Below, piece by piece: positions 22,077 through 42,410 of a stretch of DNA of 50,292 bases (the first letter of the stretch is position 1; every line of letters begins with the position of its first letter). The notes below the pieces were generated by a model that did not search any database, had not been told where the DNA came from, and saw nothing but the letters and a program-made list of their open reading frames with translations. The stretch comes from a virus. The stretch spans positions 1 through 50,292 of the IMG/VR virus record IMGVR_UViG_3300005253_000344, one strand, 5' to 3'. The translations under genes were made by a program, and so were the position numbers.

Positions 22077-22084
22077 TGGTTAAA

Positions 22085-23203: not shown

Positions 23204-23216
23204 GTGTTACTCCTTT

Positions 23217-24356: not shown

Positions 24357-24411
24357 ATTACTATCCTTTCAATTAAGCTGCTCAACAACAAGTTGAGGGT
24401 AGGTTAATTAC

Positions 24412-25313: not shown

Positions 25314-25315
25314 AA

Positions 25316-27100: not shown

Positions 27101-27102
27101 CT

Positions 27103-29022: not shown

Positions 29023-29023
29023 A

Positions 29024-29458
29024 CTATGGATTTTTCAAAGAGCTTTTTGCTATTTGGGCAAGGCGTTTCTTGCCTTGTTCAGATACTTTATCTGCTGCCG
29101 TTGCTTTGTCACCACCGGGCTTAACATCCATCGGAACTACTCTACCTTCCATGCGGTCCCAAACCAAACAAATGAAAGTCTTATCAGGTCTATGAACAAC
29201 ATCCTTAACGCCAGTTTTAACCCCCTTCGCATACACATCTTCCTGTTCAGTGTAACCAAGGGCGGATTTAACCACATGCCTCGCAATAGCTTCAGCCTTA
29301 GTCACCATCACGGCTTCCTCACCCCTGGCTTTTATCAGAGGATCGTCATGTTCCTCATTAAGAATTTCGCGGATATATTTCGACAGCAGTTTACCGGCTG
29401 CTATTTTTCTTCCGTGTTCGCTTTTTTCTGGTTTATCGGGCACCCACACACCTCTCAT
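29024..29458 (-). CDS. Candidate small terminase subunit
   Basis: 144 residues immediately upstream of TerL, two bases apart. Helical and charged (HGRKIAAGKLLSKYIREIL, EAIARHVVKSALGY). Small terminase subunits occupy this place and are of this size, but I do not see a clear HTH. It overlaps the protease gene by 26 bases. Confidence 0.45.
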   Translation of the reverse strand: MRGVWVPDKPEKSEHGRKIAAGKLLSKYIREILNEEHDDPLIKARGEEAVMVTKAEAIARHVVKSALGYTEQEDVYAKGVKTGVKDVVHRPDKTFICLVWDRMEGRVVPMDVKPGGDKATAADKVSEQGKKRLAQIAKSSLKNP

Positions 29459-30053
29459 ATGCTTCTAAGATACTCTTGCCGCTCTCGCACAAAGTAATAC
29501 CACCACCATCTACAGGACCACTGACACAAATACCGATCACCCGGCCCTTAGAATCATATAATGGGCCGCCGCTACTACCATGTGCACCTTCGGCATCAGC
29601 CTGTAAAAGATCTTCCCATTGATAACGATCTCTGTCGAGGTGAGATAATATTCCTTTTGTTATAGTAAACTTAAAATCTGGACTATATGGTGTTCCTACA
29701 AGAAACACAGTATCCCCGATGTAACCTGGTATTGCTATGACTTTAGCGATATTAAGTTCATCGGCTTCTACAAAAATAAAACCAACATCTTCCTTGGCAT
29801 CAATATAAAAATCACCGGATTCCAGTATAGTCCCATCAGTAAGTTCCACAGTAAGATTTGGATATTCCAAAACATGTGCAGCAGTAAGAATCACATCATC
29901 ATGTATAAACACACCAGATCCGAATCCATAATCATTACGTATCAGCACTGAAGCATTTACCATATTCTCATATATGTTGGGTTTCCTATTTGAGAAACCG
30001 ACTAACCCAAGAGTCAATAACGCGACAACCGCACATAGTATCAATCCTTTCAT
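29433..30053 (-). CDS. Trypsin-like serine protease with N-terminal signal or anchor
   Basis: 206 residues. The first 20 residues are a hydrophobic leader (LILCAVVALLTLGLVGF). The S1 triad is intact: His60 in TAAHV, Asp89 in KEDVGF, and Ser161 in GSSGGP, with oxyanion-type glycines. SGVFIHDDVILTAAH is the usual barrel entry. The protein is short, like DegP/Glu-endopeptidase cores without a PDZ domain. It could process virion proteins (no other prohead protease is visible) or act in the envelope, as the leader suggests. Confidence 0.85.
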   Translation of the reverse strand: MKGLILCAVVALLTLGLVGFSNRKPNIYENMVNASVLIRNDYGFGSGVFIHDDVILTAAHVLEYPNLTVELTDGTILESGDFYIDAKEDVGFIFVEADELNIAKVIAIPGYIGDTVFLVGTPYSPDFKFTITKGILSHLDRDRYQWEDLLQADAEGAHGSSGGPLYDSKGRVIGICVSGPVDGGGITLCESGKSILEAYERCVGAR

Positions 30054-30403
30054 CCTGCTAACTTCCTCACATATGCTACCTTACTACCTTCATTAGCTTC
30101 AAAATACAGAGTAGTTGACCCATACGGCATACGAAAGATATAATTGACATTGGCCATAAATATCCATTCTATATTAGCTGCCGTTGATGTCACTCCCGTT
30201 ATACTTGCAAGCATTACTTTGCCTGCCGTTCCTACAAATGTAATAACATACATCTGTCCGGCTACCAATGTCTGCGTATAATCAGCACCAGAACTGGCAA
30301 TCGTCAACGTAATACCACTTGCAGCTACGGGATTAGCACATTCAACCATAGCCGGGACGCGGTTGCCTGAATTGTCGTTTGAATATACTTCACTAACTGG
30401 CAT
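30050..30403 (-). CDS. Small beta-rich probable virion protein, 117 aa
   Basis: 117 residues, Ala/Gly/Thr/Val-rich, low charge, beta (ITLTIASSGADYTQTLVAGQ). Such proteins are often decoration or fibre-base proteins. It overlaps the protease start by four bases. Confidence 0.45.
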   Translation of the reverse strand: MPVSEVYSNDNSGNRVPAMVECANPVAASGITLTIASSGADYTQTLVAGQMYVITFVGTAGKVMLASITGVTSTAANIEWIFMANVNYIFRMPYGSTTLYFEANEGSKVAYVRKLAG

Positions 30404-30612
30404 TATCTTTCTCCTTTTCTTGTTATCGCACTATCTATAATCGCTCGCTGAACCCGGCCCTGATGTTTCTTCTGGACCATCACATCTAAGATCTTCTTAC
30501 ACCTAACCGGATTCATAGTATTCATGGCCCGTTTGATAAACTCCGTACGGGGGATGTTCTGTTGCTCTGGGGGGAAACTGTCATACACTTTAGCTATCTG
30601 TTGTTGATTCAT
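30403..30612 (-). CDS. Small hypothetical helical protein, 69 aa
   Basis: 69 residues, basic and helical (RCKKILDVMVQKKHQGRVQRA). One-base overlap with the next gene and four-base overlap with the GroES gene. No family recognised. Confidence 0.5.
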   Translation of the reverse strand: MNQQQIAKVYDSFPPEQQNIPRTEFIKRAMNTMNPVRCKKILDVMVQKKHQGRVQRAIIDSAITRKGER

Positions 30613-30869
30613 TCAGAGATCCTCACGCTAATAGTTTTCTCCGCGAGCACAATGTACTTTTTACCATCGACTTCCAACTCATCATCATTCCAAGTTGGCA
30701 ATATCACAGTATCGCCTGGCTTGAGGGCCTTGACATCAGGGCCGACAAATCGCACTGTGCCAAACCGAGCAGCATCTCTGGAACGCTCAGGTAGGATAAT
30801 CCCGCCCGGTGTCTTACCAGATTCTTTTATGGGTTCAATTATCACATTGTCTTTTAGTGGTTCGATCAT
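30609..30869 (-). CDS. GroES-like co-chaperonin (Cpn10)
   Basis: I place the start at 30869 (MIEPLKDNVI) with GAAAGGA upstream. 86 residues, close to the usual 95. The mobile loop near residues 16-27 (SGKTPGGIILPE) has the hydrophobic IIL tripeptide that contacts GroEL. The Cpn10 signature GTVRFVGPDVKALKPGDTV follows, and the end YIVLAEKTISVRI is typical. Phage versions (for example T4 gp31) redirect host GroEL to fold the capsid protein, which fits its place at the head of the late operon. Confidence 0.9.
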   Translation of the reverse strand: MIEPLKDNVIIEPIKESGKTPGGIILPERSRDAARFGTVRFVGPDVKALKPGDTVILPTWNDDELEVDGKKYIVLAEKTISVRISE

Positions 30870-30894
30870 ATCTGTTCCTTTCAACGTGGGAGAA

Positions 30895-31065
30895 TTACTG
30901 TTGTTCACCTAATCTAAACTTCTTTCTACACTTCCTATTCTGATATATGACTGTACTGCCCTCTATGGCGAATATTCCGAAATGTGTATCAACGACATAA
31001 CAGTATGGACATGTAGCTTCGATGTATTCGATGTCGTTCCATTCTGTGCAGATCCTGAGCGTCAT
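30895..31065 (-). CDS. First gene of the late operon: 56-residue Cys protein
   Basis: ATG at 31065 preceded by AGAGAGGACT. 56 residues with CPYC near residue 19 and a single later Cys (KCRKKFRLG), a partial zinc-ribbon pattern. It starts 17 bases after the conserved 32-base element and so is probably the first gene transcribed leftward. Confidence 0.55.
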   Translation of the reverse strand: MTLRICTEWNDIEYIEATCPYCYVVDTHFGIFAIEGSTVIYQNRKCRKKFRLGEQQ

Positions 31066-31081
31066 ATAGTCCTCTCTATAC

Positions 31082-31113
31082 TACCGGAGAATTGGAACTA
31101 TTTGCAAGGTTTC
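31082..31113 (-). promoter_or_regulatory. 32-base conserved element, copy 1 (candidate late promoter)
   Basis: The minus strand here is identical for 32 bases to the plus strand at 38881-38912. It contains TTGCAA, then 18 bases, then a TAGTAT-like box, with an A/T-rich stretch just upstream, as in promoters with UP elements. The first structural gene starts 17 bases further on. Most likely the promoter or activator site of the leftward structural operon. Confidence 0.6.
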
Positions 31114-31447
31114 TGGAAATAAAAATATTATTTTTTTTCTGGGGCTGTGGGACTCCTATGAGGTCGCACGTTGGGACTCCTGGGCTGCTATAGACCTTCT
31201 GCCGGGATCTGACTACGTGTATGTGGACCTGTTGTTAAGTGATTATCTAACACCGGATCTGGGGTGTCGGGTTTGTATAGGAAAGGGACCCAGGGACTCC
31301 CGCACCCATAACGCAAGGGTCGGCACGGGGGGGCATCGAGAATCAGACCTGCATACCATCGACAGCAGACCAGCGTCCGATAAGAGAATCTTCACAATCT
31401 CAAAGATTATCCTTGCACTTGTGTCTTGTGTGTGTTATACTATACAT
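31114..31447 (+). other. Non-coding divergent region with TGGGACTCCT repeats
   Basis: About 330 bases with no convincing gene, lying between the leftward late operon and the rightward small-gene block. TGGGACTCCT occurs at 31148-31157 and 31172-31181, and AGGGACTCCC at 31292-31301. A run of G (31327-31333) stands out from the AT-rich surroundings. An open frame from 31217 runs through to the mini-gene stop but has protein-unlike content. Could hold regulator or packaging sites. Confidence 0.4.
31413..31441 (+). promoter_or_regulatory. Extended -10 promoter
   Basis: TTGCAC at 31413-31418, 17 bases, TATACT at 31436-31441 with TGT just before it (extended -10). Predicted start near 31448, which is the A of the first mini-gene ATG, so that transcript may be leaderless. 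Confidence 0.6.
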
Positions 31448-31525
31448 ATGAACAGACTATACAACAACATAACAGCGGTCGATATGCTCTGGCTCGTGGT
31501 CTTGGCATATCTGGCCTTGTGCTAA
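31448..31525 (+). CDS. 25-residue membrane miniprotein (family copy 1)
   Basis: Begins MNRLYNNITAVDML and ends LVVLAYLALC. One short hydrophobic span with a C-terminal Cys. It matches the peptide at 33648 in 13 of 25 positions without gaps (shared NNI, A, DML, LVV, Y, LC). No ribosome site fits, and the promoter predicts a start at the ATG itself. Function unknown; membrane insertion is likely. Confidence 0.6.
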   Translation: MNRLYNNITAVDMLWLVVLAYLALC

Positions 31526-31572
31526 GGGATAATAACCGTTCGTCCGTTACACGGGACGTGGAGTACCTTAAA

Positions 31573-31695
31573 ATGAAGACAATGAAACGCAATAGACTCA
31601 GACAGTTAGTATCGTGGGGGTATATCACACAACCAGAAGCGAATCAGCTATGGCGTGAGTATCTCCGAATGTTTTATCACCCAAAAAGAAAGTGA
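31573..31695 (+). CDS. 40-residue basic protein with RLRQLV...REYLRMF (family copy 1)
   Basis: ATG at 31573 with GTGGAG upstream. Begins MKTMKRNRLRQLV and carries YITQPEANQLWREYLRMF. The second copy at 33128 shares RLRQLV-x-W-x-YITQ-x2-AN-x3-REYLRMF. Short, helical and basic. A longer open frame upstream runs through the mini-gene in another frame and is not believed. Confidence 0.6.
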   Translation: MKTMKRNRLRQLVSWGYITQPEANQLWREYLRMFYHPKRK

Positions 31696-31705
31696 GGATA
31701 AGAAA

Positions 31706-31855
31706 ATGGCAGTAACAATTATGACTAAAGGAAAACTTGACACTAAAAAACACTATTGTCAACAGTGTAAAAAAGAAATGGGCTTCGAGTATTTCCTCGG
31801 TGCTGTATGCGGAGCTTGTTGTCGCAAGAATCACAAACGAGTAGCAGGAAGATAA
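31706..31855 (+). CDS. 49-residue zinc-finger protein
   Basis: ATG at 31706 with GTGAGG nine bases upstream. CQQC near residue 18 and CGACC near residue 35 give a four-Cys zinc knuckle, followed by a basic end (RKNHKRVAGR). Likely nucleic-acid binding. A hairpin terminator follows the stop. Confidence 0.65.
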   Translation: MAVTIMTKGKLDTKKHYCQQCKKEMGFEYFLGAVCGACCRKNHKRVAGR

Positions 31856-31881
31856 TCACCCCAACACTCCACTTCACCAAT

Positions 31882-31913
31882 AGCCGACTGGTTACCCCAA
31901 TTATCAGTCGGCT
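31882..31913 (+). terminator. Terminator-like hairpin
   Basis: AGCCGACTG (31882-31890) pairs with CAGTCGGCT (31905-31913), nine perfect pairs, followed by GTCATTTTG. It closes the first mini-operon. The T run is interrupted, so efficiency is uncertain. Confidence 0.55.
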
Positions 31914-32050
31914 GTCATTTTGTCCAGACCAGATAACCACGTCCGATTATCCTTAACACGGAACAGCTCTAAAATCGCTGTGTCCTTGTGGGCGTGAATC
32001 AGGCGTGTCGGGGCTGATTGTCTTAGTCTCAGTATCATTTCTTGAAAATA

Positions 32051-32503
32051 TATACCTTTAGTAGTACACCTTTAGGTATATACCTTTAGTGGCAGTCTAG
32101 GTAGATTGTAGATGTACCTAGACACAAAACTCCATTATCAGGCCAATAATAGCTATGTGTCTAGGATGGTCTAGGTAGATTAGGCATACCTAGACGGCAA
32201 TAAACTCTTGCCTAGTATAGACTTACAAGCGAAAACACTGAATGTGTCTAGGTACACGAGATAAAACTCTTATATACATATATTACTATCTACTATCTAC
32301 TATACCCTATTGGTCTATACTCTTATATATTACTAAGGAAGTTTTAACACACTACCTAGACACAATAGACCAAAACAACCATAACACCAGTATCATAAAC
32401 AGTTTATCCGTGTCTAGGTACAAACAAGTTACCTAGACCATCATAGACACAACAGCCATATTGAACCAATACCGCAGATGCTGTGTCTAGGATGGTCTAG
32501 GTA
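32051..32503. repeat. Array of GTCTAGGTA repeats in both orientations (candidate origin or operator array)
   Basis: Forward GTCTAGG(T/A) cores lie at 32095, 32159, 32169, 32246, 32412, 32485 and 32495. Inverted TACCTAGAC cores lie at 32115, 32187, 32353 and 32430. A 24-base unit is repeated exactly at 32156-32179 and 32482-32505. At the left edge TATACCTTTAGT is repeated at 32051-32062 and 32079-32090. The whole region is A/T-rich, gene-free and sits between divergent operons. Iteron-type origins and multi-site operators look like this; I cannot tell which. The rest of 31914-32610 shows no convincing gene. Confidence 0.75.
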
Positions 32504-32531
32504 GAATTTTCACCGATTGTCAAGATTTAAT

Positions 32532-32560
32532 TTGCATTGTCAACCAAAATAGTGTATACT
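32532..32560 (+). promoter_or_regulatory. sigma70-like promoter after the repeat array
   Basis: TTGCAT at 32532-32537, 17 bases, TATACT at 32555-32560. Starts near 32567, about 44 bases before the ATG at 32611. Drives the next group of small genes; the last CTAGGTA repeat lies about 30 bases upstream, close enough for regulation. Confidence 0.55.
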
Positions 32561-32610
32561 TTACATAGTTAAATCAAACGCTATTTGACAAATAAATGGG
32601 AGAGATTAAG

Positions 32611-32808
32611 ATGATAACAAAAAGCATTATTGCAGTTAAATACACAACAGACGGAGTATATCTATCAGCTAAAACAGACAAGGGTGATTATGGTCAACAT
32701 TACAATACATTTGACAAAACAAAATCGTCTTTTATGCCGGACACTGATACAGCAATAGAACGGTTTGTGGCGTTTTATAATCAGTTTGAAAGGGGGACAG
32801 TACAATGA
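32611..32808 (+). CDS. Hypothetical protein, 65 aa
   Basis: Start at 32611 chosen for its GGGAGAGATTAAG site; an in-frame ATG at 32596 lacks one. 65 residues, beta start (KSIIAVKYTTDGVYLSAKT) and helical end. Its stop overlaps the next mini-gene (ATGA). No family recognised. Confidence 0.55.
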   Translation: MITKSIIAVKYTTDGVYLSAKTDKGDYGQHYNTFDKTKSSFMPDTDTAIERFVAFYNQFERGTVQ

Positions 32809-32888
32809 TAAGACGAATATGTGATAGTATCGGGTTTGAGTATAGTATCGTAGTGTTAATCGTTTGGGCTTATCTGAGTTTATGTTAA
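32805..32888 (+). CDS. 27-residue membrane miniprotein (family copy 2)
   Basis: Begins MIRRICDSIGFEYS and ends VWAYLSLC. Coupled to the upstream gene by ATGA. Like the peptides at 31448 and 33648 it is a basic or polar start, one hydrophobic span and a terminal Leu-Cys. More diverged than the other two. Confidence 0.55.
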   Translation: MIRRICDSIGFEYSIVVLIVWAYLSLC

Positions 32889-32899
32889 GGAGATATGAT

Positions 32900-33073
32900 A
32901 TGGAAAGCATAACAATCAATCAATCGCATTTAACGTCTGAGTGTTGGCTTGTGCAATTCTGGGGCTTTAAGCAATGCGAAACTTGTGAAGCCAAAGATAC
33001 GCCTGATTGTGGTGGACAGAAAATCAGACAATCAGGCAAAAATGAAAATGGATTTTCAATACCAGTAAAATAA
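32900..33073 (+). CDS. 57-residue Cys-rich protein
   Basis: ATG at 32900 with AAGGAG eight bases upstream. ECWLVQFWGF leads to CETC (near 26) and DCGG (near 36), a zinc-binding look, ending GFSIPVK. Similar small proteins, to my memory, recur in environmental phages. The reading frame stays open after its TAA into the next gene (see findings). Confidence 0.6.
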   Translation: MESITINQSHLTSECWLVQFWGFKQCETCEAKDTPDCGGQKIRQSGKNENGFSIPVK

Positions 33074-33085
33074 CCAGACCAGCAG

Positions 33086-33116
33086 CCAGTCCGGTGCAAG
33101 GCCGGACACTGGTTTT
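33086..33116 (+). terminator. Terminator-like hairpin
   Basis: CCAGT-CCGG (33086-33094) pairs with CCGG-AC-ACTGG (33102-33112) with a two-base bulge, followed by TTTT. It lies between two genes that share one reading frame. Short T run, so possibly partial. Confidence 0.45.
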
Positions 33117-33127
33117 ATGAGAAAACA

Positions 33128-33277
33128 GTGGGACACGAGCAGGACTGTTGTCCGGCGTGTTGTAAACGAATAGACAGACTGCGACAACTTGTGGTCTGGC
33201 AATACATAACACAACTACAGGCCAACAATATGTATCGTGAGTATTTGAGAATGTTCAAGAGAGTCAATAGAGTTTAA
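33128..33277 (+). CDS. RLRQLV...REYLRMF basic protein (family copy 2), start uncertain
   Basis: The only usable in-frame start after the upstream stop is a GTG at 33128 (49 residues), with a weak ribosome site. The frame 5' of it (from 33074) reads RCKAGHWFYEKT, which with the later CCPACC looks like genuine Cys/His zinc-ribbon coding. So the real protein may begin upstream by readthrough of TAA 33071-33073 or with a non-standard start, or the gene may be a decayed fusion. The C-terminal half matches the protein at 31573. Confidence 0.5.
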   Translation: MGHEQDCCPACCKRIDRLRQLVVWQYITQLQANNMYREYLRMFKRVNRV

Positions 33278-33295
33278 TTTATGAGAGGATATGAT

Positions 33296-33592
33296 ATGGT
33301 AAATCAAGAAATGACAAGCGAGCGAGAAAAACAAATAGATTGTAGCTGTCCAGCTTGTGGATGTTCAGACTTTGACGGTTATTGTAGCGACTGCAAGCAC
33401 ACAGCAGAACAAGGGAAAAACTTTTACACTGATGAGCCAGTGGTGCTGAAAAAAGGGATAACAACAGCACAACAAGAAGAACTAAATGAATTGTTGGCCG
33501 AAGATATTCTGGAACGATATAACAATTCTGAGTATTGGGAACCTGATTTAATTACAGAGTTTTATCACGATAATAATATCAAACAAGATTAA
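33296..33592 (+). CDS. Zinc-ribbon protein, 98 aa
   Basis: ATG at 33296 chosen for GAGAGG nine bases upstream. CPACG and CSDC (residues about 18-35) form a zinc ribbon; the rest is acidic and helical (TTAQQEELNELLAEDILERY). Unknown function. Confidence 0.6.
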   Translation: MVNQEMTSEREKQIDCSCPACGCSDFDGYCSDCKHTAEQGKNFYTDEPVVLKKGITTAQQEELNELLAEDILERYNNSEYWEPDLITEFYHDNNIKQD

Positions 33593-33605
33593 ACTTCGCA
33601 ACCGA

Positions 33606-33641
33606 TGGCCGTCAAGGATAGCCGGACGGATAATACGGCCA
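33606..33641 (+). promoter_or_regulatory. Hairpin just before a start codon (element copy A)
   Basis: TGGCCGT (33606-33612) pairs with ACGGCCA (33635-33641), then AAGGTT and the ATG of a membrane miniprotein at 33648. A matching arrangement occurs at 36298-36344. It could shield or expose the ribosome site, or mark mRNA processing. Confidence 0.45.
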
Positions 33642-33647
33642 AAGGTT

Positions 33648-33725
33648 ATGCAGTTTATCTTTAACAATATATCGGCAAGTGATATGCTATTGCTCGTAGT
33701 GATGGTATATGCTTGCCTATGCTGA
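33648..33725 (+). CDS. 25-residue membrane miniprotein (family copy 3)
   Basis: Begins MQFIFNNISASDMLLLVV and ends VYACLC. Closest relative of the peptide at 31448 and of equal length. AAAGG lies only two bases before the ATG, at the foot of a hairpin. The next gene's site GTGAGG follows its stop. Confidence 0.55.
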   Translation: MQFIFNNISASDMLLLVVMVYACLC

Positions 33726-33740
33726 AAGTGAGGTTGTGAT

Positions 33741-33908
33741 ATGCAGTTAAATGAAAACGAAAAAATTGAAAGCTGGGTTATTGTAGTGAGAACATCAGAC
33801 GGTAGAGAATTGAGCTTTACTGAATTAGGTCTTGAAATTTATTATAATATTTCAAAACCTATTGACGAAACACTCGAAGCTCTGTATCCCTGCGAATGGG
33901 TAGGCTAA
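33741..33908 (+). CDS. Hypothetical protein, 55 aa
   Basis: ATG at 33741 after AAAGTGAGGTTGTGAT, the ribosome-site form that recurs in this block. 55 residues, beta start (ESWVIVVRTSDGREL) and helical end. Followed by a terminator. No family recognised. Confidence 0.55.
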   Translation: MQLNENEKIESWVIVVRTSDGRELSFTELGLEIYYNISKPIDETLEALYPCEWVG

Positions 33909-33930
33909 TCATACACACACCACACACCAC

Positions 33931-33969
33931 AAGCCGGGCGGTACTCCCAAGCTGTCCGGCTTTGTTTTT
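33931..33969 (+). terminator. Intrinsic terminator
   Basis: AAGCCGG (33931-33937) pairs with CCGGCTT (33956-33962), followed by TGTTTTT. It ends the transcription unit that precedes the promoter at 34068. Confidence 0.65.
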
Positions 33970-34067
33970 GTGGGTGATATTGGTAGCGTTGGCAAGCGTT
34001 AGTCCATTACAGAGGACGTGAGGGCTTCGATATTTTCAGATTTATTGGATTTTAGGTGATTTTGGGC

Positions 34068-34096
34068 TTGACACGATATATTGGTTATGGTATAAT
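34068..34096 (+). promoter_or_regulatory. Consensus sigma70 promoter
   Basis: TTGACA at 34068-34073, exactly 17 bases, TATAAT at 34091-34096, with TGG before the -10 (extended). A perfect match to the bacterial housekeeping consensus. The predicted start (about 34103) falls at the ATG of a mini-gene at 34104. Confidence 0.85.
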
Positions 34097-34103
34097 AGCT
34101 ATT

Positions 34104-34175
34104 ATGAAGATATGGTATTTAACAGTATTAGTTTACATTACGTTAATTTTCACTGGTTTTAATCGGAGGATGTAA
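34104..34175 (+). CDS. 23-residue membrane mini-ORF at a promoter start
   Basis: MKIWYLTVLVYITLIFTGF then NRRM. A short hydrophobic peptide whose last codons overlap the ribosome site (CGGAGG) of the next gene. No upstream ribosome site is possible, so translation would be leaderless. It may be a leader peptide that couples to the next gene; real status uncertain. Confidence 0.4.
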   Translation: MKIWYLTVLVYITLIFTGFNRRM

Positions 34176-34176
34176 A

Positions 34177-34605
34177 ATGGGACGAAGCGTAGAAACGATT
34201 GGCAGGAACGTGATATACTTTGATTTTAGTTATGGCAGCGAAAACGATTACGAAGATTTAGCAACAGAAGATTGGCAGGATTTGCAGGATAATATTATTT
34301 GTGCCATAACGTCAAAGTATAAATCTTTTATCAGCACACCGAATCAATGGGCGGAATATCCGTATCGGGAAAATCGCATATTACTTGAAAATGACCACGT
34401 TCAAATCAGCATATCAGAATATTGCGGATGCGGGGCGGTATCGGTATTTGTGCGGGACGATATGGAATATCCTGAATTGGCCGAACATTGGCTGAATCAA
34501 GTCTGGGACAGATTATCGGGATTGATTAGTCAGTATGTATCAGTATTACATAAAGTCGGTACATTTAGCAATGGTATTAGTGTATATGAGAAAGCAGGTA
34601 AGTAA
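34177..34605 (+). CDS. Hypothetical protein, 142 aa
   Basis: ATG at 34177 after CGGAGGATGTAAA. 142 residues, mixed fold, with YRENRILLENDHVQISISEY and CGCGAVSVFV. Resembles small conserved proteins of environmental phages, but I cannot name the family. Its stop shares bases with the next ATG (TAATG). Confidence 0.6.
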   Translation: MGRSVETIGRNVIYFDFSYGSENDYEDLATEDWQDLQDNIICAITSKYKSFISTPNQWAEYPYRENRILLENDHVQISISEYCGCGAVSVFVRDDMEYPELAEHWLNQVWDRLSGLISQYVSVLHKVGTFSNGISVYEKAGK

Positions 34606-34796
34606 TGATAACGAAAAAAGACTCCAAGGCGATTGCGGAAATTATCAAGGCAGGTGTAGATATGACTATTATACACTCAACGACTGAGCCGAACACTACG
34701 ATTAAAAGTAATATAGCTAAAAAACTTGCCGACTACTTCGAGCAGGAAAATCCAAACTTCGACTGTGAACAATTTATGGGGGCTTGTGGATTATGA
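34605..34796 (+). CDS. Small helical protein, 63 aa
   Basis: TAATG overlap with the previous gene. 63 residues: SKAIAEIIKAG then IAKKLADYFEQENPNFD, ending CEQFMGACGL. A layout common in small phage proteins of unknown role. Confidence 0.6.
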   Translation: MITKKDSKAIAEIIKAGVDMTIIHSTTEPNTTIKSNIAKKLADYFEQENPNFDCEQFMGACGL

Positions 34797-35347
34797 AAAC
34801 AAATATATTAGTTCAATATCAAGGTGGTGGTTATGATGGTTGTATTTGGGAGTGGAACTATTTTTACATAGACAAGCAGGGAACGTTCCACGATATACAA
34901 TCGTCTGGTTGTCGCGGTATTGATAATTTGCCGGACGCGATTGAGCTTATTGAGCAGGACGAAAGCGGAACGTTTGTCTATGATATGAGCAAAGATGAAG
35001 ATATAACAGCGTTTTGTAAAGAATCACATCCTGTTCACGTTCTCGGCGTTTTGCGATGGTTTGAAAATGACTACAATGAATTAGGCGTGCAGTTTTTCGC
35101 GGTATGTTCGGCGTGTGGCGGTCAAAATTCAGATGCAGATGATATGATTGTAGAGGGTGATATACTGTTAGACTACGAATGTTATTCGTTAGGACAGTGT
35201 CCCTCTTGTGAGCAATACGTAGGCGATGATGAACTCGAACCTGTTAATCGAAATGAACATCACGACTTCGATTATATCTGCTCTGATTGTAAAGAATACC
35301 ACGATGAAGAACGCGAAGCGGAATCACTTGAGGACTTGCGTTGGTAG
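34793..35347 (+). CDS. Hypothetical protein with multiple Cys pairs, 184 aa
   Basis: I choose the ATG at 34793 (ATGA overlap) over a TTG at 34784. 184 residues. N-terminal half beta (VQYQGGGYDGCIWEWNYFY). C-terminal half has CSACG, CPSC and CSDC (about residues 106-170), enough for one or two zinc sites, followed by an acidic tail. Unknown function. Confidence 0.6.
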   Translation: MKTNILVQYQGGGYDGCIWEWNYFYIDKQGTFHDIQSSGCRGIDNLPDAIELIEQDESGTFVYDMSKDEDITAFCKESHPVHVLGVLRWFENDYNELGVQFFAVCSACGGQNSDADDMIVEGDILLDYECYSLGQCPSCEQYVGDDELEPVNRNEHHDFDYICSDCKEYHDEEREAESLEDLRW

Positions 35348-35426
35348 TCGTTCTGCACAGGTAAGCCGGATATATTTGACTTGGAATCAGTCGAACCGGA
35401 AATGAATATAGTATAATGAGGACACA

Positions 35427-35600
35427 ATGAGACAATACCAACCAAACGAGTACGCAATACTATCGGCACGACTAACAGAGCAGGAAATGACCTGTATTGA
35501 ACACTGCCAAGTCCACAGCGATTGTGCAGCCGATGGTGAGTGTCCATTGCAGGAACGGGTTACTGATATTATTGCTAAGGAAAGTGAGGTGGTGGGATGA
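35427..35600 (+). CDS. Small Cys-rich protein, 57 aa
   Basis: ATG at 35427 overlaps a four-codon mini-ORF (MRTQ, 35416-35430). Five Cys and two His in the middle (CIEHCQVHSDC) suggest metal binding. Coupled to the next gene by ATGA. Confidence 0.55.
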   Translation: MRQYQPNEYAILSARLTEQEMTCIEHCQVHSDCAADGECPLQERVTDIIAKESEVVG

Positions 35601-35845
35601 ATGAACCAATACAAAACGAATGGCAAAGTGGGCAGAGAAGTATAACCTGCTATGAACGGGAAATCGCAGAGTTAAAACAACAACGAAATGATTTGTTGAG
35701 TGTATGTAAGAATTTTGTGGAAATGGCAAAATGGGATAAAAAAGAGTTTGCATATATAGTATCGGATTTTTGTCATTCACAAATCAAAAAAGTCATAACC
35801 AGAGCAGAATCACAACAGGCTGATGAGCCGGAAAGGACGGGGTGA
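35597..35845 (+). CDS. Coiled-coil hypothetical protein, 82 aa
   Basis: ATG after GTGAGGTGGTGGG. 82 residues, with YEREIAELKQQRNDLLSVCK as a likely coiled coil. Similar small helical proteins are common in early phage regions. No specific role. Confidence 0.55.
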   Translation: MNEPIQNEWQSGQRSITCYEREIAELKQQRNDLLSVCKNFVEMAKWDKKEFAYIVSDFCHSQIKKVITRAESQQADEPERTG

Positions 35846-35848
35846 GAT

Positions 35849-36028
35849 ATGAACGAAAATAAAGACAGAATTATGCACAGAGGTGTTGACATTGTAGCAA
35901 GTGGATATGAATGGACATGCCCGAATTGCGGGGAACTTAACAAAGAATATGAATATCGTAAAGATTATTTTTGTAGCTCTTGTGGTAATCATATTGAAAC
36001 TGCTCCGCCGGGGCATGCAATGAGTTAA
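35849..36028 (+). CDS. 59-residue zinc-ribbon protein
   Basis: ATG at 35849, three bases after the previous stop, with GGGGTGAGAT upstream. CPNCG (about 24) and CSSCG (about 42) make a classic zinc ribbon; it ends PPGHAMS. Confidence 0.65.
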   Translation: MNENKDRIMHRGVDIVASGYEWTCPNCGELNKEYEYRKDYFCSSCGNHIETAPPGHAMS

Positions 36029-36066
36029 ACAGCACCATCACAGGTGCGGAAAGATGAGGTAACAGA

Positions 36067-36285
36067 ATGAAAGCAGAACGAACAATACCGAAGCAGGAGT
36101 TTGTACCAGTGATAGTAACGCTGGAAAGTCAAGAAGAAGTGGATTCTTTTTTCGCAATAAGTAATAGCACAATAATGTGTGGTGCTTTTCCTGCATTAGA
36201 TAAATTATTCAATATCCTTCTAGATTTTAATAGTGACCAATCTAATATTTTAGACGATAGACTTCGCCGCATATTGAAATCCTAA
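36067..36285 (+). CDS. Hypothetical protein, 72 aa
   Basis: ATG at 36067 after GATGAGGTAACAGA. 72 residues: beta (PVIVTLESQEEVDSFF) then helix (ALDKLFNILLDF). No family recognised. Confidence 0.55.
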   Translation: MKAERTIPKQEFVPVIVTLESQEEVDSFFAISNSTIMCGAFPALDKLFNILLDFNSDQSNILDDRLRRILKS

Positions 36286-36297
36286 ACCTACAAGCGA

Positions 36298-36344
36298 TGG
36301 CCGTCTGCAACGTCCGGCTCAGGCTCGGCACTACCGGACGGCCA
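36298..36344 (+). promoter_or_regulatory. Hairpin just before a start codon (element copy B)
   Basis: TGGCCGTC (36298-36305) pairs with GACGGCCA (36337-36344); an inner TCCGG/CCGGA pair can extend it. AGAGGTT and ATG 36351 follow. Copy A at 33606 shares GATGGCCGTC and GGCCA-AGGTTATG. Confidence 0.45.
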
Positions 36345-36350
36345 GAGGTT

Positions 36351-36689
36351 ATGAGTTTAGTATATAGAATCCAGAGCAAGCAGGACAGGACGCGTGGTGC
36401 GTATCGAAGTCACGTATATGGTGATGATTTGCCGGACATAGTACACCGAATGAGAAATACTCATCACGATTATCAGTGTGGTGGTAAACATCCTACACCG
36501 TTAGCCGATACTAAACGTTATATATATAAACATGAATTTTGCGGTTTTAACTCAGCAGCAGACCTGCTCCGTTGGTTCAAGGGCTTCATCCCCGATTTGC
36601 TTCGAGCCGGATATGAGATTGTCGCATTGCGTGATGTGACGGTAACAGCCGTTGGAGAATTTCAGGTATTATTTACATTTAATACTTGA
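36351..36689 (+). CDS. Hypothetical protein, 112 aa
   Basis: I prefer the ATG at 36351 over an in-frame ATG at 36297, because the extra 18 codons are the hairpin. 112 residues: VYRIQSKQDRTRGAYR, HHDYQCGGKHPTPLAD, FNSAADLLRWF and VTVTAVGEFQVLF. The His/Asp-rich middle and order of motifs recur in phage proteins of unknown function. Confidence 0.6.
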   Translation: MSLVYRIQSKQDRTRGAYRSHVYGDDLPDIVHRMRNTHHDYQCGGKHPTPLADTKRYIYKHEFCGFNSAADLLRWFKGFIPDLLRAGYEIVALRDVTVTAVGEFQVLFTFNT

Positions 36690-36714
36690 CAAGCCGATTC
36701 GATTATGGTATAAT
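36686..36714 (+). promoter_or_regulatory. Consensus sigma70 promoter
   Basis: TTGACA at 36686-36691, 17 bases, TATAAT at 36709-36714, with TGG before the -10. It overlaps the end of the previous gene. The transcript would start at about 36721, at a four-codon mini-ORF (MKVR) that overlaps the ribosome site of the next gene. Confidence 0.85.
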
Positions 36715-36740
36715 TAAGACAATGAAAGTGAGGTGAACTG

Positions 36741-37118
36741 ATGGGAATTATTAGTGAACAAGTAAAGCAGGCGTTTGACAATTACCGACAGGACGGCGAT
36801 TTGCAAAAGTTCGCAATGAAACTGGTATGCGATGCAGATGATAGTGTACGATTCGGATGGCAAATGGGATACGTATGTGATGCTATTCGTGAACATTGTC
36901 CCAAACCATCATTTGAGTGTGTATTCTATAATGGTGAAAATGGTAACTATCACCTGTTCGATTTCGACCCGAACCTGATTAGCAGAAAATCATTGCTGAT
37001 AGAAGTGCGAAGTCATTTGCGACATGAGTGTCACATTGACCCTGATGGTATAGACAAGGCGATGCAAAGCGTGTATCTACTTAGCATAAATACATTAGTA
37101 AAGGTGGTGACAGAATGA
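36741..37118 (+). CDS. Hypothetical protein, 125 aa
   Basis: ATG at 36741 after GTGAGGTGAACTG. 125 residues, helical start, two Cys/His-poor domains. No family recognised. ATGA overlap with the next gene begins a six-gene coupled run. Confidence 0.6.
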   Translation: MGIISEQVKQAFDNYRQDGDLQKFAMKLVCDADDSVRFGWQMGYVCDAIREHCPKPSFECVFYNGENGNYHLFDFDPNLISRKSLLIEVRSHLRHECHIDPDGIDKAMQSVYLLSINTLVKVVTE

Positions 37119-37282
37119 AAGTTAAAGTACAGATAACAGAAACATTACAACGGAGCATTAAAGTAGAAGCCAAAGACGAACAAGATGCTCTTGATTATGT
37201 AAAACAGCAGTATGTTGACGAGCGAATTGTGCTCGATTCAAATGATTGTACCGATGATACAGAATTTGAGGTGGTGACATGA
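37115..37282 (+). CDS. DpnD/PcfM-like small protein
   Basis: 55 residues: KVQITETLQRSIKVEAKDEQ, ALDYVKQQY, ERIVLDSND and FEVV. This is the pattern of the DpnD/PcfM domain (ITE-tL-x-v-eA...A-x-V-x-y...IvLds-DF...feV), a small module found in plasmids and phages. Biochemical role unknown. Both ends overlap neighbours by four bases. Confidence 0.65.
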   Translation: MKVKVQITETLQRSIKVEAKDEQDALDYVKQQYVDERIVLDSNDCTDDTEFEVVT

Positions 37283-37437
37283 AACCCGAACTAATATGCA
37301 CCTGCGGCAGAAAGTTGGAATTAGAAGAACTGGCAGGTAATGACTTCGATGATTATGCTGCTCGGTGTGAATGTGGTATGGCTTGGCAAGTACGTGACGT
37401 TTCAGAAGAACTTGATGAAAGAGAGGACGAAACATGA
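37279..37437 (+). CDS. 52-residue zinc-ribbon protein
   Basis: CTCG (about 7-10) and CECG (about 30-33) form a zinc ribbon in an acidic 52-residue protein. Coupled at both ends by ATGA. Confidence 0.6.
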   Translation: MKPELICTCGRKLELEELAGNDFDDYAARCECGMAWQVRDVSEELDEREDET

Positions 37438-37619
37438 AACAACTAACAGACACAAAACGATTAAAAGTGGCGATGAGCATACTTAGTGAATGGCAAGTCG
37501 ATGAGTATGCAGAACGATGCAGGATACTCGAACTCAACTGCGAGCGTAAATGTGGTGATTGTTGTTTATCTGAATATGGCCGCAGAGCAATAAACTGCCC
37601 ATATCTGGATGTGATATGA
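37434..37619 (+). CDS. Small Cys-rich protein, 61 aa
   Basis: 61 residues; helical start and a Cys cluster (CRILELNCERKCGDCC) then CPYL. Likely metal-binding. Coupled at both ends. Confidence 0.6.
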   Translation: MKQLTDTKRLKVAMSILSEWQVDEYAERCRILELNCERKCGDCCLSEYGRRAINCPYLDVI

Positions 37620-37801
37620 CCAGAGCAAAGAAAAACCCTAAACTTGAAAAACCGATACCGGACATCGCACAGAGTTTCGCAGACCGATTCATTGCTTCGT
37701 ATGGTATCACTGATGCGGAACAGATAGCGAAGCTGGTGTATGAGAAAGTGGTGGCTTCCCGTAAGGGGCTTGAACGTAAATATGGTAAGGATAGAAAGTA
37801 G
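37616..37801 (+). CDS. Small basic helical protein, 61 aa
   Basis: 61 residues: basic start (MTRAKKNPKLEKP), FADRFIASYGITDAEQIAKL helices and a basic end. Possibly nucleic-acid binding; no family recognised. Confidence 0.55.
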   Translation: MTRAKKNPKLEKPIPDIAQSFADRFIASYGITDAEQIAKLVYEKVVASRKGLERKYGKDRK

Positions 37802-37810
37802 AGGTGATAT

Positions 37811-38170
37811 ATGACAGAACAAGAACAGAATCTATTAAATGCGGCACAAGAAATTGTATATGATTTCAATCATTACGGAGAAGTATTGCAGGTCGGCGAT
37901 AATGGAGAATATGGTACAGAGAGTTCTATTGGCATGTTAAGTGCTGCGATACATCAATATGAAGATGGCCGCAAGATAAAACCACTGGCTCAATATCTGG
38001 ACGAGTATATTCAGCATGAAATTGAAACGGAAAATATACTTAGCCTTGATGATATTGAAGGTTCAAGTAGTTATGGTTCATGGTGTGAACTACTCGAACA
38101 AGCATTGGAAGCGTATGAATTAACTGAGAACGTATTGATTCATATTATTATTAAAAAGAAAGCGAGGTAA
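37811..38170 (+). CDS. Acidic helical hypothetical protein, 119 aa
   Basis: ATG after AGAGGTGATAT. 119 residues, acidic and mostly helical (LAQYLDEYIQHEIE). No recognised domain. Confidence 0.55.
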   Translation: MTEQEQNLLNAAQEIVYDFNHYGEVLQVGDNGEYGTESSIGMLSAAIHQYEDGRKIKPLAQYLDEYIQHEIETENILSLDDIEGSSSYGSWCELLEQALEAYELTENVLIHIIIKKKAR

Positions 38171-38174
38171 TAAT

Positions 38175-38438
38175 ATGTTATACCGAATCCAAATTGACCA
38201 AAGGTTTGACAAACAAAAAGCCGTAATCGAAGCCGTGAAGGAACTGGCAAGCGACTTCATAATTCTGACCGGCATGGCATATTTTGGTAATAATCACAGG
38301 CCGTGCCAGGTGATTGAAATTAACTGCAGCGACTTCATAGGTGCTGCCGTGACTGCCTGTGTCAATAAGCTCAAAAAGATATTGAACATGCCACACATAA
38401 TGGTGACGCGGACTGATACGAATAAGGTGACGTATTGA
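38175..38438 (+). CDS. Hypothetical alpha/beta protein, 87 aa
   Basis: ATG at 38175 after GAGGTAATAAT. 87 residues: helical start (QKAVIEAVKELASDF) and beta strands (IILTGMAYF, CQVIEINC). Its stop overlaps the TTG start of the HTH gene. Confidence 0.55.
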   Translation: MLYRIQIDQRFDKQKAVIEAVKELASDFIILTGMAYFGNNHRPCQVIEINCSDFIGAAVTACVNKLKKILNMPHIMVTRTDTNKVTY

Positions 38439-38728
38439 AACGACTAATCACAGAACAAGAAGAGCAAGCATACAGATTATGTTCACCGGATTTCTTCGGT
38501 CTAACATATGAGAACGCAGCAATACTCCTGCATTGTCATTTGAACACAGTTTGGTATAGGCTCAATCGACTTAAAGCGAAAGCTCCGCAACTATTTTATG
38601 ATGGTTTTATCAGGCCAAGAACGCCGCATACTGGTAATCCGAATGATTATGGTGCTAAAGGGGGAAGTGTAAATTTTGTAATGTCTTATCATCCTTCGAT
38701 GGATGGTGACATTAAAATGAAATTCTGA
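38435..38728 (+). CDS. HTH / sigma region 4-like protein A
   Basis: 97 residues from a TTG start (TTGA overlap, AAGGTG upstream). LITEQEEQAYRLCS and GLTYENAAILLHCHLNTVWY form an HTH of sigma70 region 4 or LuxR type, followed by RLNRLKAKAPQLF. It ends MSYHPSMDGDIKMKF. The next gene is a paralogue with the same start and end motifs. Likely a transcription regulator. Confidence 0.6.
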   Translation: MKRLITEQEEQAYRLCSPDFFGLTYENAAILLHCHLNTVWYRLNRLKAKAPQLFYDGFIRPRTPHTGNPNDYGAKGGSVNFVMSYHPSMDGDIKMKF

Positions 38729-38799
38729 TTATAGATTAAGTCCCCCACCCGGGGCATATTACATGAGGTGCGGTAACAGATTTCAGAGTTTGGAAGCAA

Positions 38800-38823
38800 T
38801 GGCCAGTCGGGGAATCCTGGCCA
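38800..38823 (+). promoter_or_regulatory. Hairpin in the intergenic gap
   Basis: TGGCCAG (38800-38806) pairs with CTGGCCA (38817-38823) around a 10-base loop. The T run is 40 bases further on, so termination is doubtful. The rest of 38729-38880 is gene-free, A/T-rich near 38860-38878. Confidence 0.4.
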
Positions 38824-38880
38824 GAGCTTCTGGGCTTTGTCCGATAAGGTTATTTATAAAATTTTTTAGATTTTTTGGCG

Positions 38881-38912
38881 GAAACCTTGCAAATAGTTCC
38901 AATTCTCCGGTA
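38881..38912 (+). promoter_or_regulatory. 32-base conserved element, copy 2
   Basis: Identical to the minus strand of 31082-31113. TTGCAA at 38887-38892 with an A/T-rich stretch upstream, then 18 bases to TATGGT at 38911-38916. It directly abuts, and overlaps the first base of, the second HTH gene. If it is a promoter, transcription starts near 38923, inside the annotated start of that gene. Confidence 0.6.
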
Positions 38913-39310
38913 TGGTGAGGGCATATATAATAACTAAGCGATTGATAACTAAAAAACAGGAACAAGCACTTAAGCTTTGTCACCATGAATTTGACGGCTT
39001 AACACAAGTTGAAGCAGCAGAACAGGTGGGTATTAGCCACCAAGCCATAAGTGATTTATTAGCCCGCGTTAAAAAAGTCCTTCCACAATATTTTCCTATT
39101 TTTACAAAACTTGAAATGAGATGGTATCATTATTATATGGTTGATGGTTGGAGTGTTGCTGATATAGCAGAATATACTGAATCCTCGCCGGATACAATTT
39201 ATAAAGCACTCAAAAGAATAAGAAGTAAAGGAGCATATTTCACTGAACCGACAAATCGAGTATTGTCCTATGATGAGAGCATGGATGCTAACATAAAACA
39301 GAAATTTTAA
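38912..39310 (+). CDS. HTH / sigma-like protein B (two HTH motifs)
   Basis: 132 residues in the open frame. KRLITKKQEQALKLC, then GLTQVEAAEQVGISHQAISDLL is a clear sigma-region-4-type HTH. A second HTH (DGWSVADIAEYTESSPDTIYKALKRI) follows, and it ends LSYDESMDANIKQKF. It matches protein A at both ends. The ATG at 38912 has no ribosome site and lies in the likely -10 box, so TTG 38942 (MITKKQEQ) is an alternative start. Candidate switch protein for the two operons that carry the 32-base element. Confidence 0.65.
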   Translation: MVRAYIITKRLITKKQEQALKLCHHEFDGLTQVEAAEQVGISHQAISDLLARVKKVLPQYFPIFTKLEMRWYHYYMVDGWSVADIAEYTESSPDTIYKALKRIRSKGAYFTEPTNRVLSYDESMDANIKQKF

Positions 39311-39313: not shown

Positions 39314-39407
39314 GGTGGTATCAGCCCGAAATCTAAGCACCGCCGTTAGACAACTTCAGACTATATGATAGCGGGACTGTGGCAGACGACAAGTAGGGCT
39401 GACCACC
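39314..39407 (+). ncRNA. Candidate structured leader RNA
   Basis: GGTGGT-AT-CAGCCC (39314-39327) pairs with GGGCTG-ACCACC (39396-39407), 12 pairs with a two-base bulge, enclosing about 68 bases that include an inner CCGC/GCGG pair. The 3' strand ends 18 bases before the ATG of the next gene, as in the leader at 1029-1140 (19 bases); both also contain CTAAGCA. May regulate the nucleotide-enzyme gene. Not matched to a known class. Confidence 0.4.
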
Positions 39408-39424
39408 ATAATCGGGAGAATGAT

Positions 39425-40093
39425 ATGGAAATTAAACAGACAAATCCCAAAGACGCTTTGGGTATTAAAAAAGCACCATTACATTGTATTCCTTGTGGGC
39501 CTTTATATGAATTGGGGTTGGCTATGATGGAAGGCGGGAGAAAATATGGCACGCATAATTATCGTGCTGTTGGTACGCGTGCATCAGTGTATTACGATGC
39601 TGCTATGAGACATCTCACAAATTGGTGGGAAGGTGAGGACATTGATTCCGATAGCGGGCTTCATCCCCTTATAAAAGTAGCAGCATGTTGTGTTGTAATG
39701 CGTGATTCTATGCTTATGGGTAATGATGTTGATGACCGGCCAATCAAATACCCTAATGGATTAGATATGAACAAACTTAACGAACAAGCTGCGAAGCTGA
39801 TTGGTAAAATTACGAAGTGTGTCGCTCCTTTTCTCGAAAAAGACAAACCATTCGTCTGTCCTGCGGGGTGGAAAATAGCACTTAACAGAGCGGATGATTG
39901 TGGATGGTATGCTTGCTATCAAAATTATAATCTACATCAAGATGCGTATCTACATAAAGGTGGAACGCTTCATACTGATGGCGGCACGGGCAAGGAATCT
40001 TATTACAAATTCGGCGAAGCCCCCGGCTACTGGCCAACGAAAAAAGATGCGGAAGCGGCTTTGGTTACTTATTTGGGGAAGAAAGGTAGCTGA
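39425..40093 (+). CDS. dATP/dGTP diphosphohydrolase N-terminal domain protein (PF18909-like)
   Basis: I place the start at 39425 (MEIKQTNPKDALG) after GGGAGA. 222 residues. NPKDALGIKKAPLHCIPCGP then ELGLAMMEGGRKYGTHNYR, AAMRHLTNWWEGEDIDSDSG and HPLIKVAACCVVMRD are the signature motifs of the PF18909 (former DUF5664) family. The E-x2-R/K and D-x-D-x-SG-x3-H residues are expected to bind metal and nucleotide. It probably converts dGTP or dATP to the monophosphate. The C-terminal 80 residues are an extra Trp/Tyr-rich domain. It heads a run with a membrane protein and an HD hydrolase. Confidence 0.75.
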   Translation: MEIKQTNPKDALGIKKAPLHCIPCGPLYELGLAMMEGGRKYGTHNYRAVGTRASVYYDAAMRHLTNWWEGEDIDSDSGLHPLIKVAACCVVMRDSMLMGNDVDDRPIKYPNGLDMNKLNEQAAKLIGKITKCVAPFLEKDKPFVCPAGWKIALNRADDCGWYACYQNYNLHQDAYLHKGGTLHTDGGTGKESYYKFGEAPGYWPTKKDAEAALVTYLGKKGS

Positions 40094-40365
40094 TGTGGCA
40101 AGACTGGCTGAATGGAATATTTGAGCTTTTGGGTGGCCTGTTTATTACACTTAGTTGTATTAAACTCCACCGAGATAAAAAAGTTCGGGGTGTAAGTTTC
40201 ATACATGTAGCTTACTTTACAGCATGGGGTTATTGGAACATTCATTATTACCCACATCTTGGACAATGGATAAGTTTTGCTGGTGGTTTGAGTGTAGTAT
40301 TAGTAAATACAATATGGTTAGGGATGTTGGTTCATTACATACGAAAGGAACGAAATGAACACTAA
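40093..40365 (+). CDS. Small three-span membrane protein (SemiSWEET/PQ-loop-like)
   Basis: 90 residues, TGATG overlap with the previous gene. Three hydrophobic segments: LNGIFELLGGLFITLSCI (about 6-23), VSFIHVAYFTAWGYWNIHYY (about 34-53) and FAGGLSVVLVNTIWLGMLV. The short loop LHRDKKVRGVS between spans 1 and 2 resembles SemiSWEET half-transporters. A membrane protein coupled to nucleotide hydrolases may carry a base, nucleoside or sugar, but this is inference. Confidence 0.6.
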   Translation: MWQDWLNGIFELLGGLFITLSCIKLHRDKKVRGVSFIHVAYFTAWGYWNIHYYPHLGQWISFAGGLSVVLVNTIWLGMLVHYIRKERNEH

Positions 40366-40894
40366 AATTGTGACATATACAGGTAAGTCTTTTGATTTAC
40401 TTAATCCATTACCGGAGATGGTTTGTATCGAGGATATTGCACATGCTTTGGCAAATATCTGTCGATATACTGGACATGTTCGAGAGTTTTACTCTGTGGC
40501 ACAGCACTGTGTGTTAATGGTAAAGGCTAATTTACCTGGTGGTGCTTTGCAAAAACTACTACACGATGCCCACGAAGCATATACCGGGGACATAGCAAGT
40601 CCTTGGAAACAATGTCTTATTGTCCATGATTTTGATGTGTCTGTCAAAGAATGGGAGCAAAAAATTCAAAAAATTATTGGATTAGCATTAGGGATTAACC
40701 TTGATTTTTCTGCAGAAGTCAAAGAAGCTGATAACCGAATGTATTTTACAGAAGTTCGAGACTTGATGCCCCTGTCTGATGAGTTTGGAAAATGGCGAGG
40801 AAATTTGGAACCTTTAGAAGAAAAAATAATTTGTTGGAACCCTTTAGTGGCTGAGGATATATTTCTTGCAACATATAATGGTTTAAGGAGTTGA
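40355..40894 (+). CDS. HD-domain phosphohydrolase (YfdR/DatZ-like)
   Basis: 179 residues. TYTGKSFDLLNPLPEMVCIE is followed by the HD core: IAHALANICRYTGHVREFYS, His51 in VAQHCVLM, the HD pair at 70-71 in LLHDAHEAYTGD, and a later KEADNRMY. This is the layout of phage YfdR-like hydrolases, a group that includes DatZ, the dATP triphosphohydrolase of 2-aminoadenine phages. Here it follows a PF18909 enzyme by one gene. Exact substrate cannot be read from sequence. Confidence 0.75.
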   Translation: MNTKIVTYTGKSFDLLNPLPEMVCIEDIAHALANICRYTGHVREFYSVAQHCVLMVKANLPGGALQKLLHDAHEAYTGDIASPWKQCLIVHDFDVSVKEWEQKIQKIIGLALGINLDFSAEVKEADNRMYFTEVRDLMPLSDEFGKWRGNLEPLEEKIICWNPLVAEDIFLATYNGLRS

Positions 40895-40897
40895 CAA

Positions 40898-41593
40898 ATG
40901 AGTAGAGTTCTCGATATAGGCGACCCGCATGAACCAGTATGCCATCCCGGATACCGAGCATTTTGTAGGGACTTGAGACGAAAGTTCAAAACGACTAAGA
41001 CAATTATAAAAGGTGACATCTGTGATCATCATGCGATTAGTTTTCATGCTGCGAATCCAATGTGTCCCGGTCCCAATGATGAATACCAACTAACCAAACA
41101 AAGGATGCGACTATGGCATAAAGATTTTCCGAGAGCAATTATTACGATAGGAAATCACGATATGCGAGTTATTCGGCTTGCAGAATCAGTTAATATCCCA
41201 CCTCAATATTTACGTAACTTCAATACGATATGGAATACACCAACTTGGAAATGGGTCGAGGACATCATTATCGATGGAGTATATCATTTTCACGGTACCG
41301 GCAGGAGTGGTTTGTACCCGGCATACAATGCTATGAAGGACCACCTGATGTCTGTGTCTGTGGGGCATTGTCATACAGCATCAGGTGTCAAGTGGTCAGC
41401 GAATCCAGATCAACGAACATTTGGTATGGATGTAGGCTGTGGAATTGACGTTGATGCCTGGCAGTTTGCTTATGGTAAACACATGCGGAAACGACCTATT
41501 TTGTCGGCGGCAGTTATCATTAACGGTATACCTCAACACTTCATTATGCCTTGTGGACGAGGTGAGAAATACCATAAATCGAGATTCAAATGA
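40898..41593 (+). CDS. Calcineurin-like metallophosphoesterase
   Basis: 231 residues with the full motif set: GDPH (8-11), GDICDHH (39-45), GNHD (85-88) and GHCH (156-159). These bind two metals. Related phage enzymes act on RNA or nucleic-acid 3' ends or on small phosphoesters. It starts three bases after the HD gene. Cys residues late in the protein (DVGCGIDVDAW, MPCGRGEK) are not part of the core. Confidence 0.85.
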   Translation: MSRVLDIGDPHEPVCHPGYRAFCRDLRRKFKTTKTIIKGDICDHHAISFHAANPMCPGPNDEYQLTKQRMRLWHKDFPRAIITIGNHDMRVIRLAESVNIPPQYLRNFNTIWNTPTWKWVEDIIIDGVYHFHGTGRSGLYPAYNAMKDHLMSVSVGHCHTASGVKWSANPDQRTFGMDVGCGIDVDAWQFAYGKHMRKRPILSAAVIINGIPQHFIMPCGRGEKYHKSRFK

Positions 41594-42407: not shown

Positions 42408-42410
42408 AAA

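Follow-up and report, generated by a model that had tools for sequence, protein, structure and literature searches.

A genome-specific, promoter-like element heads both the structural operon and the tandem-HTH gene in an uncultured tailed phage and its relatives

The virus record analyzed here, 50,292 bases long, derives from an uncultured tailed phage and is referred to in its entirety as the window. The structural genes of this phage run leftward from approximately position 31,065, the genes for an HTH protein and for replication run rightward from 38,912, and one copy of a 32-base element, pointing outward, is located at the head of each block. The features of the locus are as follows.

5779..30908, minus strand: structural operon (GroES-like protein, protease, TerL, portal and more genes)
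25316-27100, minus strand: portal, in the structural operon
27103-29022, minus strand: TerL, in the structural operon
30609-30908, minus strand: GroES-like co-chaperonin, close to the head of the structural operon
30895..31065, minus strand: first ORF of the structural operon, 56 residues, CxxC zinc-ribbon-like; G004 has a similar ORF
31070-31077, minus strand: Shine-Dalgarno run AGAGAGGA, after the left TAGTAT
31078..31083, minus strand: left -10-like hexamer TAGTAT; the layout is also found in relatives
31084..31109, minus strand: left copy, genome-specific block CCTTGCAAATAGTTCCAATTCTCCGG that precedes the structural operon and matches the right copy at 26/26 bases
31114..31136, minus strand: A/T-rich, UP-element-like tract upstream of the left copy; most relatives also have an A/T tract here
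31413..31441, plus strand: host-type promoter TTGCAC-17-TATACT, directed into the interval that separates the copies; used as internal control
38435..38728, plus strand: shortened HTH paralog directly upstream of the right element
38851..38876, plus strand: A/T-rich tract upstream of the right copy
38885..38910, plus strand: right copy, block as in the left copy, before the HTH gene and the replication genes
38911..38916, plus strand: right -10-like hexamer TATGGT, overlapping the ATG at 38912; relatives have TAATAT or TAGTAT
38912..39310, plus strand: tandem-HTH, sigma-region-4/YlxM-like protein, candidate reader of the element; conserved start at 38930
39365..49201, plus strand: replication/nucleotide operon downstream of the right copy (dATP/dGTP hydrolase domain, metallophosphatase, DNA polymerase A, PD-(D/E)XK nuclease and AAA protein)

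The two copies of the 32-mer, GAAACCTTGCAAATAGTTCCAATTCTCCGGTA, lie at 31113-31082 (minus strand) and 38881-38912 (plus strand) and are exact reverse complements over 32/32 bases. A longer inverted match of 55 bases at 82% was also present; it is owed to the A/T-rich flanks, and strict identity is confined to the 32 bases. By a simple calculation, an exact 32-base inverted pair would arise by chance in 50 kb with a probability on the order of 1e-10. A search of the window with the 21-base core, allowing up to 3 mismatches, revealed only these two sites and no third copy, with 0.00 expected from shuffles. In both copies, TTGCAA is followed 18 bases on by a -10-like hexamer, which is TAGTAT on the left and TATGGT on the right. 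As evident from these results, the initial annotation had described the pair correctly: an exact element in opposite orientation, with an A/T-rich stretch, TTGCAA and a -10-like box at each copy, heading two operons. The left copy faces the structural operon, beginning with the 56-residue ORF that starts at 31065, and the right copy faces the HTH gene and the replication genes. That annotation had also proposed searching for the 32-mer in related phages. The exact 32-mer had no match in IMG/VR, and what is conserved there is a diverged form of the element, in the same placement and orientation. A nucleotide search of sequenced phages returned chance matches only, and the Rfam search returned no match.

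Several other features were observed in and around this region. An imperfect 18-base palindrome, GTTAAGTGATTATCTAAC, is located at 31234-31251 and was found with 0-1 mismatch in nine records, always near the left element. Non-coding DNA at 32095-32503 contains nine occurrences of TACCTAGAC, distributed over both strands, together with nested inverted repeats; this array is iteron-like and is possibly an origin or a regulator site. HTH paralogs fuller than the one at 38435-38728 occupy the equivalent place in G009, G010, G012, G013 and G020, and the contig ends of G027 fall within tandem HTH copies. Additionally, a direct repeat of 90 bases, 96% identical, is present at the record ends (44-133 and 50203-50292), and either reflects overlapping, diverged ends of a genome that is circular or permuted, or is a gene copied in tandem.

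Relatives were retrieved from IMG/VR by a search with the HTH protein and then with profiles of the HTH protein and of TerL. A first-pass PWM missed the distant relatives because the block differs among them, and these were recovered genome by genome in a self-search, in which the 100 bases preceding the HTH gene were compared with the whole genome on both strands and the best match was taken; the pair of G009 came from the PWM scan. The self-search mostly returned an opposite-strand site directly upstream of the structural operon. In total, 15 genomes (the window and 14 IMG/VR relatives) carry the pair, all in the outward orientation. From the right-hand site to the downstream HTH coding match the distance is 27-146 bp, except in one record, where it is 699 bp and the HTH reading frame appears to be extended at its N-terminus. 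The left-hand site lies on the opposite strand, 1.9-7.6 kb upstream of TerL. In particular, G003, whose TerL is 82% identical, has two related elements in equivalent places and orientation that differ from each other and from those of the window. Retrieval through TerL, which is unbiased by the HTH gene, likewise showed the element ahead of the structural operon in the majority of close relatives. The self-search of G018 and G014 gave as its best match a third copy on the same strand; the left copy of G014 is weak and shifted, and a search for the left copy in G030 found none. Third copies were also found in G007, G008 and G012 and, as in G014 and G018, are in direct orientation; those of G008 (L018, 12376 after reversal) and G012 (517) precede a CxxC protein, MKxCTKC...PLSxFAEYRPGH.

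Comparison of the heads revealed that those of one genome share 20.7 of 26 bases on average among the 15 genomes, a value inflated by the choice of pairs partly on best-match similarity, while heads of different genomes are alike at chance level (11.0/26 for H-S, 11.2 for H-H and 10.9 for S-S comparisons). In 200,000 random re-pairings, the observed identity sum was never reached; an earlier version with 10 genomes was also made. By a simple estimate, a spurious best match would land on the correct strand and no more than 8 kb from TerL in only approximately 8% of genomes; the best match did so in nearly all of them. Head-to-head identity was 0.6-0.9 across approximately 35 bp and 0.2-0.56 on both flanks, and since the likeness is limited to approximately 35 bases, the pair does not represent a duplicated segment. 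As judged from these alignments, the switch exists in a version particular to each virus and common to its two main gene blocks. Perfect pairs were present in two genomes, spanning 32 bp for the window and 43 bp for G027, which indicates that recent gene conversion may contribute; yet most pairs differ at scattered positions, with 18 to 28 of 31 bases alike, and still track each other. Exact identity in these two genomes would also be expected if the copies were inversion sites, as the initial annotation had offered as an alternative, or were alike merely through recent duplication, gene conversion or assembly error. We consider this very unlikely, as the orientation is outward in 15/15 genomes, third copies are direct, the promoter core is alike but the flanks are not, copies that have diverged still track each other, and Pfam detected no recombinase in the window ORFs scanned.

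The elements were found to have a common order: an A/T tract, the genome-specific block, a TAnnnT-type hexamer, a purine-rich Shine-Dalgarno sequence and, in the majority, a start codon a short way downstream. The block comprises approximately 24 bases and covers the -35 region and the spacer, and in the close relatives of the window the -10 follows the -35 position at a distance of 18. Across genomes, a TTGACA-like -35 was not above chance (2.91 matches of 6 versus 2.83 in shuffles), and the match to the -10 was modestly above shuffles (4.35 versus 3.91 of 6). This is the arrangement of an activator-box promoter, in which a TAnnnT -10 is kept and the -35 is replaced by a phage-specific box, with a -10 signal that is modest when taken alone. 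The internal control at 31413 showed the reverse pattern: TTGCAC and TATACT are kept in seven genomes and the 17-base spacer is unrelated, in contrast to the element, whose block is kept within a genome while the -35 is at chance. Since the control pattern required both hexamers, only the unrelatedness of the spacer and the common location are informative. A sigma-54 promoter was also considered; the -24/-12 spacing (TGGC...TTGC) fits only the right copy of the window and, in the aligned sequences, fails in the left copy and the relatives, and this reading was rejected.

These comparisons bear on the main rival explanation, in which the block is a shared operator: host polymerase alone would drive both promoters, and the HTH protein bound to the block would repress its own gene and the structural operon, for timing or autoregulation. 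The block does overlap the promoter, a site between the -35 and the -10 also fits the binding position of a repressor, and the HTH gene is directly downstream; in the window, moreover, TTGCAA is a passable -35 (4/6 matches) and A/T tracts are present. However, a repressed sigma70 promoter should retain its -35, as the neighboring TTGCAC-17-TATACT promoter does, and across genomes the -35 is at chance even though the block is conserved. Because the -35 is not retained, repression through the block is less likely, and we regard it as improbable overall.

The right copy of the window is itself unusual, as its -10, TATGGT, is among the weakest of the set. The conserved start codon of the HTH gene is ATG in the relatives and ATA (38930) in the window, where the sole upstream in-frame ATG (38912) lies within the -10. 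The HTH protein of the window is either translated from read-through transcripts, or the record contains local errors.

The AlphaFold model of the protein encoded at 38912 (pLDDT 87) revealed two three-helix HTH units, the first of which is similar to sigma region 4 in fold comparison. By Pfam, the protein is close to UPF0122/YlxM and to region 4 of sigma70: UPF0122 (PF04297) matched residues 6-60 above the gathering cut-off (43.1 versus 22.7 bits). The PHROGs matches, like those of Pfam, were of HTH/sigma4 type. The score stayed below the cut-off of the NCBIfam YlxM equivalog NF045758 (46 versus 80 bits). Weak matches were found to models of a "positive control sigma-like factor" and of YlxM, to PRK06930 (NCBIfam) in 4/8 family members, and to sigma70-ECF models in 8/8 members scanned. 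Foldseek searches against the PDB and viral models gave no match at E<0.001, and the matches were mostly of HTH type. No match to the protein was found among sequenced phages, nor in GTDB genomes, which therefore provide no host link; the portal protein likewise had no match among sequenced phages.

With its region-4-like fold and the weak sigma70-ECF matches of all members scanned, the HTH protein could be all or part of a dedicated split sigma, similar to SigO-RsoA, that guides core polymerase to a complete phage promoter independently of the host sigma. A complete sigma factor would contain region 2, for which Pfam and NCBIfam gave no match in the 132-residue protein; Pfam detected no region-2 partner in the scanned ORFs, and the -10 resembles the housekeeping type. 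A split sigma thus appears to be a slim prospect.

The element and the HTH protein change together. HTH distance correlated with element distance after removal of DNA polymerase distance (partial Mantel r=0.36, p=0.002; 15 related genomes) and with the upstream half of the element (r=0.35, p=0.0002), and none of nine other phage proteins showed such a relation to element distance (all p>0.26). In a post hoc reading of approximately 17 sequences, helix types of the first HTH paired with half-site types: RRxQQ with TTCGT, QSxxS with CGATAA, RAIxY with CCTTCYAAATA, and QAIS[DK] with TTGYA. The second HTH showed a weak trend with the downstream half-site (p=0.09). That the switch version changes with the adjacent DNA-binding protein suggests that the two are probably lock and key, and this covariation supports the HTH protein itself as the candidate reader of the element. 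It fits repression as well as activation. Promoters of a single-subunit RNA polymerase encoded by the phage would also be short, highly conserved and genome-specific; however, the block tracks the HTH protein, and Pfam scans of 40 window ORFs revealed no RNA polymerase, which makes this explanation the least credible of those considered.

Taken together, the comparisons strongly support a phage-specific regulatory or promoter element common to the structural operon and the HTH gene. The reading that we favor, and consider reasonably probable, is that of paired outward phage-specific promoters, in which the -10 would be used by host RNA polymerase and the block by the 38912 HTH protein as activator. 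Host polymerase would read the TAnnnT -10 and probably the upstream A/T tract, and the block of approximately 24 bases in the -35/spacer region would take the place of the host -35 and be read by the tandem-HTH protein, the first HTH probably contacting the upstream half-site, as the covariation supports. Read-through from the host-type, rightward promoter near 31413 may supply the first HTH protein, which would then activate its own operon along with the structural operon. The joint change of the two sites, which was observed, would follow if one protein serves both, as a change in the protein would force both sites to change, giving each phage lineage a password of its own that is common to the two heads. 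Counting against this reading are the weak left copy of G014, the failure to find a left copy in G030, the modest -10 and the weak right copy of the window.

The initial annotation had proposed a phage-specific promoter or activator site that turns on the late operon and an autoregulated gene at 38912. The first part agrees with the element being at both heads across relatives. The ON direction and the "late" label are both inferred, with the weak -35 regions favoring activation instead of repression. Going further, we tentatively suggest, at somewhat less than even confidence, that a widespread lineage of uncultured phages has a regulon of two to three sites whose promoter code is rewritten in each lineage together with the tandem sigma4-like protein, the two HTHs reading two half-sites that replace the host -35 and giving dozens of natural, matched protein/promoter pairs that do not cross-talk.

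The general kind, a phage activator with activator-box promoters, is already known. In T4 middle promoters (PMC2988021), the host -10 is likewise kept, a small phage protein reads a box at about -30 that replaces the -35, and replication genes are among the targets; T4 MotA differs in having another fold, needing AsiA and using one box sequence for about 60 promoters, in contrast to the two to three longer, genome-specific copies found here. Mor/C and Pm of phage Mu (PMC4390567) are similar in that a phage activator site stands in for the -35, an UP element lies upstream and the HTH activator is phage-encoded. Mor, however, binds an inverted repeat centered at -43.5, whereas the block described here is nearer (about -13 to -37) and mostly non-palindromic, and the HTH protein is of another family (tandem sigma4-like). 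The RinA/ArpU/Ltr late regulators of Gram-positive phages (PMC13123087) are also small proteins of several sequence families that switch on the packaging/structural operon from a TATA-box promoter; for Phi13 Ltr, the proposed binding sites are direct repeats ahead of the start, whereas here the site also precedes the gene of the regulator itself, and the arrangement is inverted. PBSX Xpf, a positive control factor (PMC10141391), is a sigma-like phage protein that controls prophage genes and is listed with sigma2 and sigma4 regions, in contrast to the two HTHs, with no region 2 detected, of the 38912 protein. With UPF0122/YlxM the protein shares the PF04297 match, but it sits in an unrelated gene setting. 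In our analysis, the system matches MotA, Mu Pm, the late regulators and Xpf in logic and is assigned to none of them.

These results turn one odd repeat into a rule, in which each phage has a private promoter password with its likely reader beside one copy. They also provide a rule for annotating promoters in a lineage with HTH and portal proteins that are without match among sequenced phages. IMG/VR contains no fewer than 350 TerL relatives, so that sequence comparison could yield the recognition code of a small sigma4-like regulator, testable with matched pairs.
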